From NCBI GenBank assembly GCA_025057155.1, contig JANWYD010000001.1:209113-273112 (forward strand): a stretch of DNA of 64,000 nt, read 5' to 3'. The notes under the pieces were generated by a model, which saw only the letters and a list, made by a program, of their open reading frames with translations, did not search any database and was not told where the DNA came from. This DNA is from Chloroflexaceae bacterium (GTDB taxonomy: Bacteria; Chloroflexota; Chloroflexia; Chloroflexales; Chloroflexaceae). The position numbers were made by a program, and so were the translations under genes. Shown here one piece after another: positions 7,748 to 11,585 of this stretch (the first letter of the stretch is position 1; each line of letters opens with the position of its first letter).

Positions 7748-7778
7748 CGTCCCGAAGGTGTCAGATGCCTTCGGGACG
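7748..7778 (-). terminator. Second leader hairpin of the rib operon
   Basis: A perfect inverted repeat CGTCCCGAAGG (7748-7758) and CCTTCGGGACG (7768-7778) lies between the FMN aptamer and ribD. On the minus strand it is followed by TTGTGTTTGTT, a weak T-rich tail, so it may be a terminator or part of a switching structure. Confidence 0.6.
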
Positions 7779-7823
7779 CTTTATGCGCGCAAGCCAGCCG
7801 CCACGCCGCTGGCTGGCCTGCTG

Positions 7824-7859
7824 TGAAAATACCCCGAACAATAACACTGTTCGGGGTAT
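7824..7859 (-). terminator. Intrinsic terminator downstream of the FMN aptamer
   Basis: The 12-bp stem ATACCCCGAACA (7829-7840, plus strand) and TGTTCGGGGTAT (7848-7859) is followed on the minus strand by TTTTC. It sits about 45 bases after the aptamer 3' end, the usual place for an FMN-controlled transcription terminator. The competing antiterminator was not mapped. Confidence 0.75.
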
Positions 7860-7904
7860 CGCGAAACCAGATCAGCACGCTATGGCGGAATCCCAGCGTG
7901 TTTG

Positions 7905-8048
7905 AACCTTCTTTCATCCCGACTATACGGTCGGCCCCGGAGTTGCACCGGATCGTGCGCCGCATCAGAAAGTTGCCGCGCTCGTGGGCTATACCACCGA
8001 TCGGGAATTGCCCGGCTTCATTGCCAGACTCACCCTGCCCCGAAGGTT
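7905..8048 (-). ncRNA. FMN riboswitch (RFN element)
   Basis: Read on the minus strand, the RFN consensus blocks appear in order: GGGGCAGGGTGA, AATTCCCGATCGGTGG, AGCCCACGAGC, GATCCGGTGCAACTCCGGGG and CCGACCGTATAGTCGGGATG. The closing P1 stem is AACCTTC paired with GAAGGTT. The aptamer lies in the leader of ribD-ribE-ribBH and is followed by two hairpins, so FMN binding is expected to end transcription early. The 5' edge of P1 abuts the 5-bp target duplication of a MITE-like element. Confidence 0.95.
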
Positions 8049-8050
8049 GC

Positions 8051-8188
8051 TAGTTTGTGAACTAAGTTTTCTGGCCTTTCCGCCCTCCTCCCCGCCTCCC
8101 TCCGTTGGGTGGAGGAGCCGGATGTCCTCCCCCGCGGGAGAGGGTTGGGGAGGGGGTGGGTTGAGCACAAAACCTGGTTCACAGACTA
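8051..8188. mobile_element. MITE-like element, copy B (138 bp), abutting the FMN riboswitch
   Basis: Its ends TAGTTTGTGAAC and GTTCACAGACTA are inverted repeats. It is flanked by a perfect 5-bp direct duplication GTTGC (8046-8050 and 8189-8193). The interior matches the GC-rich arms of copies A, C and D. It carries no gene. It lies between the FMN aptamer and any upstream promoter on the minus strand. Confidence 0.9.
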
Positions 8189-8354
8189 GTTGCCCTATTC
8201 AATTAAGAGGTGCTTGTCATTTCAGGATGCCGCTATGCAAACCCCATTCTAGCAAGCGCGTGAAGAAACTTGCTCTCTTCGCCTTCTTCTGACCAGTGTT
8301 GGGATAGAGTATACCATAAAGTGTCGGAACGCTGTATGCTATAATCGCCCTCTG

Positions 8355-11300
8355 ATGGTTGCCGAAGCGCCACTGCTGCTTGCCCTCTGCGCGCCCCTGC
8401 TGCTCTATCTGCCCGGTTGGGCCGTGAGCCGGCGCTTCGGCGCGCCCGCCGACCCTCTGGAGCGCCACTTCGAGCGCGTGGCCGCCAGCGCCCTCTGGAG
8501 CGGCTGGCTGGCCTTGCTCCTGGCCCAGCTTGGCCTGTTTAGTCTCTGGTTGCACCTGTCTCTGACCGTCGCCGCCAGCGCCCTCGTGGCCCGGGGCGGG
8601 CGGCGCGCGGCGCCGGCAGGCCCCGTTCCCCGCTGGCAGTTCCTGGTCTACGGCGCGGTCCTGGCGCTGACATTGCTGCTCGTCGCGCGCCCATTCGAGG
8701 TGGTGCTGGGGGTGCGCGACGCGGGGGTCTATGCCAACACCGGCTTCGCCATCGCCCGCACCGGGGCGCTGGTGCAGGCCGATCCGTTGCTCGCCGATCT
8801 GGGGCGGCGGGCCGGTGATCCTGACCCCCGGCTTGCCAATCCGGCGCGCCAGGCGATCACCAACTACACTATCGGGCAGCCGCAAGAGCGCTACATCGCC
8901 ACGCGCCTGCGGGCCGCCGGGTTCTTCGTCTATGAGGGGGAACTGTCCCGGGGCCGGGTGGTGCCCCAGGGCCTGCACCTCCTCCCCGCCTGGATCGCCC
9001 TGCTCACCGCCGCTGGCGGCCCCGCCGCGGGGCTGTTCGCCGTGGGCTTGCTGGGCTGGCTGGGGGTGTGGAGCGCAGGTATGCTCGGGCGGCGTCTGGC
9101 CGGTCCCTGGGTGGGCTGGCTGGCGATGATGTTCCTCGCCCTTAACGGAGTGCAGGTCTGGTTTGCGCGCTATTCCACCGCCGAGACGGTCGCGCAGTTT
9201 TTGATCTGGGCCGGCTTGTTCTTCTTCGCCGTGATGCACGATCCCGCCAGTGACACGGCTACCCGGCGGCGGGCTGCGGCCCTGGCAGGTCTGGCGGTAG
9301 GGCAGGTGGCCCTGGCGCGGCTGGATTTCTTTCTCCTCGGCCCGCTGCTGCTCTACCTGGTCTACATCTGGGTCAGCCGCCGCTGGGAACGCTGGCACAC
9401 TATTCTCGCCCTGGCCCTTGGCCTGATGCTCGGCCACGCCGTGCTCCACGTGCTGCTGATCGCCCGGGCCTACGTCTTCGATACCGGCCACGAACGCCTG
9501 CTGCGCGATTCGGCCCTGCTGGCCCTGGCAAGCCTGCCCTTCCTGACCCCTGAGGTGCGCGAGACGTTTCTGACCAGCCCCCGCAGCGCCCTGGCGCGCC
9601 CGCTGACTCTGCCCGGCGACCTGACTCTGGGCGCCTGGGCGCGCCTGGCGCTGGAACTGGCCCTGCTGGGCGCCGTGGGGGCCGCCCTGCTCGCCCTGCG
9701 CGCCCGTGCCGGCCTGCTGCGGCGCCTGGAGCAGACCCTGGCCCGCCGCCGCGAGCCGCTCCTGCGGGCGACCATGGTCGCGCTCCTGCTGCTGGCCGGC
9801 TACGCCTACCTGGTGCGCCCGCAGATCCTCGACGCCGACATCTTCTTCAACACCCGCGGCGGCTGGAACGACCCCCTCACTCGCGACCCGGAGCTGGTGG
9901 CCCTCGATGTGCGCGAGGGGCGCATGACCATTGACGAGGCTCGCGCCATGGCCGGCGTGGTGCTGGTGGGGGACAAGGTCTGGGAGCAGCAGCCCGACCT
10001 GGCGGCCACCGCCGAACTGCGCGCGCGCCTGGCGGAAGAACGAGGCCCCTGGCGCGGGCCGTTCAGCAACCAGACCCTCAACTGGCTGCGGCTCCAGGGC
10101 TACGTGGGCGCGCCCATCCGCCTGCCGGTGCAACTCTGGTACGAGGAGTACAACGGCATGTCCTGGTGGCAGCGGCTGACGGCCGACCCGGCAACGTTCA
10201 CCTCGCAGCCGGAGATTATCAACGAGAAGTACCGCATTCCCCTGGCGAACCTCGTGCGCGTGGGCTGGTACCTCTCACCCCTGGGCATGGTCCTGGGCTG
10301 CGTGGGCTACGCCCTGTGGTGGCGGCGCGGGCTGAGCGCAGCGGCGTGGCTCTTCCTCAGCGTCAGCCTGCTGGGCACGTTCTTCTACGTGCGGCAAACC
10401 TACGGCACCGGCGAGCAGCACTACATCTACATTCTGCGCCGCTTCGTGCCGATAACCTATCCTGCGCTCAGCCTGGGGATGGCCTACGCCCTGGTCGCTC
10501 TGGCCGCTGCCGGGATTGCACGCTGGCGTTCCACGCCCCGTGTCCTCGGGGCAGGACTGCTCGGCGCGGCGGTGGCGCTCGCGGCGCTGCAAGTGGCCTT
10601 CTTCGCGGTCACCAACCGCCCGATCTTCTTCCATACCGAGTACCGGGGAGCAGTGGCGCAACTGAGCGCCCTGGCGCGGCAGTTTCGCCCCGGCAGCGAC
10701 GTGCTGCTGCTGCGCGGCGGCGCCCCTATCCATGCCCAGTCCCGCGACATCCCCGACCTGGTGGCCACCCCGCTGCGCTTCGCCTATGACCTCGACGCCT
10801 TCGCAGTGAAGAGCGCCCGGCCGGGCAACTACGCCGCGGACCTGGCCCTCCAGGCCCGCTACTGGCGCGCCGAGGGCCGCGAGGTCTACCTGCTGCTGAG
10901 CGCCTCGGGCGGCAGCTTCGCCCTGCCCGGCTTCGACCTGGAACTGGCGGGCGCCTTCACCCTCGACCTGCCGGAGTTCGAGCAACTCACCGACCAGAAG
11001 CCGCGCAACGTCTCGCGGCTGACGCTGCCCTTTGCGATCTACCGACTCGTGCCGGGCGCGCCGGGCGCGGTCGCCACGCCCGAGCCGCCCCTCCTCCCCG
11101 ACGCCTTCGCCGCCCAGGTCACCGGCTTCTACCGCCCCGAAGCAGACCCGGTGGGCCGCGCCTATGCCTGGACCAACGGCGACGCCATCCTGCGCCTGCC
11201 GTGGCCCGCCGGAGCCGCCGCAAGCGAGGTAGGGCTGGAGCTGGGCGCTGGCGAGCGTCCAGCACACCTGGGGCCGGCGCGGGTGTGCCTGAGCGCCCTG

Positions 11301-11585
11301 CCCGAAACCAGCCAGTGGCCTGCCACGACGGGCGCGCCGGTCGAACTGGGCTGCTTCGCAGTCAATGGTGAGCCGGGCACGTACCGGGTGCGCCTCGATC
11401 CGGCGCGGCTGCCGCCCGCGCCCACCGGCGCCCTGTTGCTGCGCCTGGCCGGGCCGTCGTGGATCCCCGCCCGCGAGGACCCGCGCCAGAACGACCGCCG
11501 CGACCTGGGGGTGCAGGTGTATGGGGTGGGGGTGGAAGAAACAGACATCCTAGAAAACGGGAATGTAGGGCGATCGCTTCAGTGA
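8355..11585 (+). CDS. Large multi-pass membrane protein, GT-C glycosyltransferase-like
   Basis: A 1076-residue protein with many hydrophobic segments: roughly a dozen between residues 5 and 500 and several more between 630 and 760. It ends in a long soluble C-terminal region of about 300 residues. A loop after the third or fourth membrane segment contains GVRDAGVYANTGFA, reminiscent of the acidic first external loop of GT-C (PMT/ArnT-like) glycosyltransferases, and LARLDFFLLGPLLLYLVYI is typical of such proteins. Function is inferred, not demonstrated; a lipid-linked sugar transferase of the envelope is the best guess. A TATAAT lies about 10 bp before the ATG, so the transcript may be nearly leaderless. 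Confidence 0.65.
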   Translation: MVAEAPLLLALCAPLLLYLPGWAVSRRFGAPADPLERHFERVAASALWSGWLALLLAQLGLFSLWLHLSLTVAASALVARGGRRAAPAGPVPRWQFLVYGAVLALTLLLVARPFEVVLGVRDAGVYANTGFAIARTGALVQADPLLADLGRRAGDPDPRLANPARQAITNYTIGQPQERYIATRLRAAGFFVYEGELSRGRVVPQGLHLLPAWIALLTAAGGPAAGLFAVGLLGWLGVWSAGMLGRRLAGPWVGWLAMMFLALNGVQVWFARYSTAETVAQFLIWAGLFFFAVMHDPASDTATRRRAAALAGLAVGQVALARLDFFLLGPLLLYLVYIWVSRRWERWHTILALALGLMLGHAVLHVLLIARAYVFDTGHERLLRDSALLALASLPFLTPEVRETFLTSPRSALARPLTLPGDLTLGAWARLALELALLGAVGAALLALRARAGLLRRLEQTLARRREPLLRATMVALLLLAGYAYLVRPQILDADIFFNTRGGWNDPLTRDPELVALDVREGRMTIDEARAMAGVVLVGDKVWEQQPDLAATAELRARLAEERGPWRGPFSNQTLNWLRLQGYVGAPIRLPVQLWYEEYNGMSWWQRLTADPATFTSQPEIINEKYRIPLANLVRVGWYLSPLGMVLGCVGYALWWRRGLSAAAWLFLSVSLLGTFFYVRQTYGTGEQHYIYILRRFVPITYPALSLGMAYALVALAAAGIARWRSTPRVLGAGLLGAAVALAALQVAFFAVTNRPIFFHTEYRGAVAQLSALARQFRPGSDVLLLRGGAPIHAQSRDIPDLVATPLRFAYDLDAFAVKSARPGNYAADLALQARYWRAEGREVYLLLSASGGSFALPGFDLELAGAFTLDLPEFEQLTDQKPRNVSRLTLPFAIYRLVPGAPGAVATPEPPLLPDAFAAQVTGFYRPEADPVGRAYAWTNGDAILRLPWPAGAAASEVGLELGAGERPAHLGPARVCLSALPETSQWPATTGAPVELGCFAVNGEPGTYRVRLDPARLPPAPTGALLLRLAGPSWIPAREDPRQNDRRDLGVQVYGVGVEETDILENGNVGRSLQ

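Follow-up and report, generated by a model that had tools for sequence, protein, structure and literature searches.

A MITE-type element inserted beside an FMN riboswitch in the ribD leader of a Chloroflexaceae bacterium

In the trp operon of Streptococcus pneumoniae, a BOX element lies between two T-box riboswitches and forms part of their transcript; those who described it infer that regulation still works despite its presence (PMC3049150). The Correia elements of Neisseria carry promoters and an IHF site, and the formation of riboswitches and terminators counts among the conceivable effects of MITEs (review PMC10969869). Within the open-licence literature, searched mostly by title, we came across no account of a MITE directly next to an FMN riboswitch. 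Here we describe such an arrangement in a window of 64,000 nucleotides from a Chloroflexaceae bacterium (genome G000; 5.13 Mb, draft of 189 contigs).

The riboflavin operon of the window is encoded on the minus strand and comprises ribD (deaminase plus reductase, PF00383 and PF01872; 6462..7652), ribE for riboflavin synthase (two copies of PF00677; 5869..6480) and a RibB-RibH fusion that joins DHBP synthase and lumazine synthase in one ORF (PF00926 and PF00885; 4572..6035). Between the two domains of this fusion lie about 85 residues, with no Pfam match to GTP cyclohydrolase II, and the same layout is found in G002 (L121), a genome of the same genus. In G002 (L089/L121), the riboswitch leader runs straight into a reductase-only RibD, lacking the deaminase domain (~150 aa) that both the window and G004 have; a RibD query returned no deaminase-domain match elsewhere in that genome. 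On the opposite side of the leader, a large divergent ORF (8355..11585, plus strand), probably a membrane protein, has no Pfam match; its 5' end is kept in G002 and it bounds the far end of the intergenic region.

The ribD leader contains an FMN riboswitch aptamer (7902..8051, minus strand) that matches the RF00050 covariance model over its full length (model positions 1-138 of 138) with 90.1 bits, above the Rfam gathering cut-off of 66.2 bits. In the Rfam alignment, the P1 stem is formed by the 5' strand AACCUUC (8042..8048) and the 3' strand GAAGGUU (7905..7911, paired as 7911-7905), both on the minus strand. Downstream, the expression platform includes a terminator-like hairpin, CCCCGAACA...UGUUCGGGGUAUUUU (7826..7860, minus strand), which folds with 15 pairs and is absent from the output of a simple terminator scan, and a second hairpin recognised by folding (7748..7779, minus strand). 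Both are kept in G002. The 5' arm of the second hairpin, CCCGAAGG, is complementary to CCUUCGGG of the aptamer, and this complementarity suggests that P1 and the platform may compete.

Immediately 5' of the aptamer lies an element of 138 bp (8051..8188, minus strand, the direction of ribD transcription), an imperfect palindrome with no ORF of its own, recognised from its copies in the genome, their alignment, its hairpin and its absence at the G002 site. Its terminal inverted repeat on the aptamer side (TAGTTTGTGAACTAAGTTTT; 8051..8070) is identical at 17 of 20 positions to that on the promoter side (8169..8188; reverse complement TAGTCTGTGAACCAGGTTTT). Target-site duplications GTTGC flank both ends. 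The inner copy (8046..8050) forms part of P1 and corresponds to a single GTAAC (minus strand) at the G002 empty site; the outer copy (8189..8193) is assigned from the sequence, from the 5-bp duplications found across the family and from the comparison with G002. When folded as RNA, the element forms one hairpin: a 156-nt stretch reaches -80.8 kcal/mol (z = -6.2), and none of 200 shuffles was as stable. The sole ORF across it (7984-8292, plus strand) looks like a chance frame, and no transposase is present within the 138 bp. Matches to microRNA families over the element fell below the gathering score and were dismissed as chance on a long hairpin. Taken with the family-wide duplications and the single-copy empty site, the terminal repeats bear out the original prediction of a MITE-type insertion with a true target duplication.

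The family numbers approximately 43 copies in G000, a figure derived from 57 blastn matches, some of which are one copy matched on both strands; most are 79-87% identical to the copy in the ribD leader. An alignment of 26 copies yielded the consensus ends TAGTCTGTGAAC...GTTCACAGACTA. The terminal motif TAGTCTGTRAA occurs 134 times in G000, versus 0 for a reversed control, and is found in other genomes of the genus as well (45 in G003, 41 in G002, 3 each in G001 and G004). Exact 5-bp duplications outside TAG...CTA were present in 13 of the 34 copies with both ends readable, compared with 1.25 expected and a maximum of 6 across 1000 random re-pairings. The duplications prefer a CTNAG-like target, and GTTGC at the ribD leader is off-consensus. 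According to a rough reading-frame analysis of 30 copies, none lies inside a gene and about one third lie at most 60 nt from a predicted gene start, which makes 5' regions the usual landing place of the family.

No transposase gene was found between matching terminal repeats in the draft assembly of 189 contigs, and the element had no match in plasmid records. Two candidate partners were rejected. The one IS-sized pair of terminal repeats (1,572 bp, contig C7), considered as an autonomous transposon, encloses an epimerase-like ORF and is made of two MITE copies; the single PF01609 (DDE_Tnp_1) gene is interrupted by a stop within the match and lacks matching ends. The C7 pair itself (G000:C7:135165-136736, L114), two copies measuring 1.57 kb end to end around the epimerase-like ORF, could resemble a composite mobile unit. 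Elsewhere in the genome, three copies stand head to tail with CTCAG joins, one target-length spacer each (G000:C27:24325-24748; L002, L027), and contigs C2, C5, C9 and C10 bear a longer class, about 320 bp in length, that shares these ends (L115, L116, L117, L119). A CRISPR-DR28-like repeat (38 bits; L010:1410-1433) was noted about 70 bp from another copy. An end motif also occurs about 2.2 kb from a second FMN riboswitch in both G000 (C2:39984) and G003 (C294:3502), probably one older insertion that the two genomes have in common.

The insertion site can be aligned directly with one same-genus genome, G002. On the minus strand, G002 reads GAATAGA-GTAAC-CTTCGGGG and continues with CTTCGGGGC; the window reads GAATAGG-GCAAC-(138 bp)-GCAAC-CTTCGGGG, likewise followed by CTTCGGGGC. 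The empty site that had been predicted for a close relative therefore exists, with a single target copy that differs from the window by one C/T substitution in the five bases. Synteny, judged by comparing ORF translations, is complete, with the divergent ORF on one side and ribE, RibBH, CRP-like, M20-peptidase-like and methyltransferase-like genes on the other. The element is also absent at this position in G004, which has another upstream gene, and in G012, G024 and G036 from another genus of the family; a search for further close relatives returned only distant RibD homologues. Given the syntenic empty site and four further, more distant relatives without the element, we conclude that the insertion is derived in the lineage of the window. 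An element that is structured and directly adjoins an aptamer could also be read as an ancient, immobile part of the riboswitch leader. Such a conserved arrangement, named in advance as evidence against a recent insertion, is refuted by the five genomes, and the element recurs in about 43 genome copies, with no Rfam riboswitch near any of the 29 other copies examined; we regard this reading as practically untenable.

Two bases (8050-8049) separate the element from P1, and the first three bases of P1 belong to the aptamer-side copy of the duplicated target, as anticipated from the overlap of GTTGC with the stem. P1 is intact because the target duplication left a full GCAAC copy on this side. 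The aptamer of the window scores 90.1 bits, and that of G002, which is uninterrupted, 89.0 bits. This shows that the FMN sensor was left intact at the level of sequence and covariance, and it would be expected to bind its ligand.

With a gap of two bases, no promoter fits between the element and P1, so any promoter must lie in the element or beyond it. The element is thus placed between the aptamer and any upstream promoter, as proposed, and in the window no promoter fits that would give a start site between the two, the other outcome named as speaking against the proposal. Where transcription begins was addressed with a promoter model fitted on sequence upstream of 36 other FMN riboswitches from relatives; one of the 37 training sequences (L104) duplicates the window, adding noise and no promoter signal. 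Most of these riboswitches show TTGACA-17/18-TGNTATNNT, and roughly 12-29 nt lie between the end of the -10 and the TTCGGGGC motif. In four ribD-linked FMN riboswitches of the family there is a good -10 only (TATAAT or TACAAT), at about 20 nt from the aptamer, and a canonical promoter lies 17 nt from the other FMN riboswitch of G000 (L097).

It had been suggested that the element supplied a promoter, and promoters known in other bacterial MITEs (PMC10969869) lend this some weight: an outward promoter could now drive the riboflavin operon in the manner of Correia elements. The ancestral promoter region also looks weak or decayed. G002 itself has no strong promoter, its best being CTGAGA-18-TGGCATCCT, 37 nt upstream of the TTCGGGGC motif, and its TGGCATCCT reads CGGCATCCT in the window, where the -35 is disrupted. 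However, the family-trained model gives the element no score above -0.9 in the direction of ribD, whereas shuffled sequence averages 2.4, and no match came from a generic sigma-70 scan of the region. These results speak against the suggestion, and we consider a promoter brought in by the element very unlikely.

Because the element lacks promoter-like sequence toward ribD, the most likely course is a start upstream with read-through of the element, and the 5' leader would then measure up to some 650 nt. Two candidate start regions lie on the minus strand within the 166 bp between the element and the divergent ORF: an extended -10, TGGTATACT (8308..8316), kept in G002 and scoring 4.4 with the position weight matrix, which is not above chance, and a 20-nt block, GGCATCCTGAAATGACAAGC (8212..8231), identical in G002 and a possible alternative promoter region. 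Neither scores above shuffled sequence. Since the best upstream candidates are within the shuffled range, ribD transcription could start at a non-canonical site inside the element.

Read-through would expose the operon to the element as RNA. Attenuation of ribD transcription might come from the hairpin itself or from a Rho-type site formed by its C-rich 5' half; the hairpin is indeed very stable, and inserted repeats such as BIMEs are able to attenuate operons according to work cited in PMC3049150. Yet a terminator scan found no intrinsic (U-tract) terminator in the element, and the operon is intact. It encodes a RibD in an open frame, and no other full-length RibD was found in G000. The pneumococcal BOX, co-transcribed with its riboswitches without apparent loss of regulation in the reading of its authors, points the same way. 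We therefore view harmful attenuation as unlikely, if less so than a promoter inside the element. A sole full-length RibD in an open frame, behind a well-preserved riboswitch, indicates instead that the insertion was probably tolerated.

Folding of the leader was modelled at ligand-free equilibrium, a setting that leaves FMN and co-transcriptional order outside the model. When the transcript began 5 nt outside the element, P1 formed with a probability of 0.95; with shuffled elements in place of the real one the value was about 0.01, and the difference arises because the real element closes on itself. For starts from 8195 to 8302, P1 was roughly three to six times likelier with the element than without, and mostly low in both; this comparison used an element-free construct with one target copy, whereas earlier element-free constructs carried both. 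In this model, the element need not disturb the aptamer. One could go further and regard the self-folding element as an insulator that closes on itself next to P1 and keeps the upstream leader from pairing with the aptamer, in which case the insertion would have improved or re-tuned FMN sensing; we hold this to be highly doubtful.

Our preferred explanation, which we consider probable, is a single MITE insertion after the split from G002, with an intact sensor, read-through from upstream and a near-neutral effect. As the empty site and the family show, a non-autonomous MITE with TAGTCTGTGAAC-type ends, about 138 bp in length and favouring CTNAG-like 5-bp targets, inserted once in the ribD leader. 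As judged by sequence and covariance score, the target duplication rebuilt the P1 strand through its aptamer-side copy, and ligand binding is presumably unaffected. Transcription of ribD-ribE-ribBH would begin in the upstream region (8194-8354) and pass through the element, so that the mRNA would bear a self-folding 138-nt hairpin 5' of the aptamer. FMN control via P1 and the terminator hairpins downstream is probably little changed, and the insertion would be tolerated as near neutral, with at most a modest shift in leader folding, stability or elongation.

The locus offers a natural experiment: two species of one genus carry the filled and the empty version of a riboswitch leader, and the boundaries are exact to the base. 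It illustrates that, through its target-site duplication, a transposon can insert at the border of a structured RNA and leave that RNA whole; the filled/empty pair allows a direct test of the 5' context that a riboswitch tolerates. The insertion is an ordinary kind of event, cleanly documented, and no new type of system. Its riboswitch resembles the known FMN riboswitch (RFN element, RF00050), with a full-length aptamer before rib genes and terminator-like hairpins downstream; in most relatives, however, the promoter lies 12-29 nt upstream, whereas in the window a 138-bp insertion comes in between. Like Correia elements, the element is short, has terminal inverted repeats, belongs to a family common beside genes and might alter expression, but Correia elements bear promoters, and nothing promoter-like points toward the operon in the ribD-leader element. 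A published precedent is the BOX in the T-box trp leader, another MITE-like repeat within a riboswitch leader whose riboswitch, its authors infer, stays functional. The BOX is modular, lies between two T-boxes and has been shown to be transcribed, whereas the present element is a single palindromic unit 5' of a single FMN aptamer and is known from sequence.
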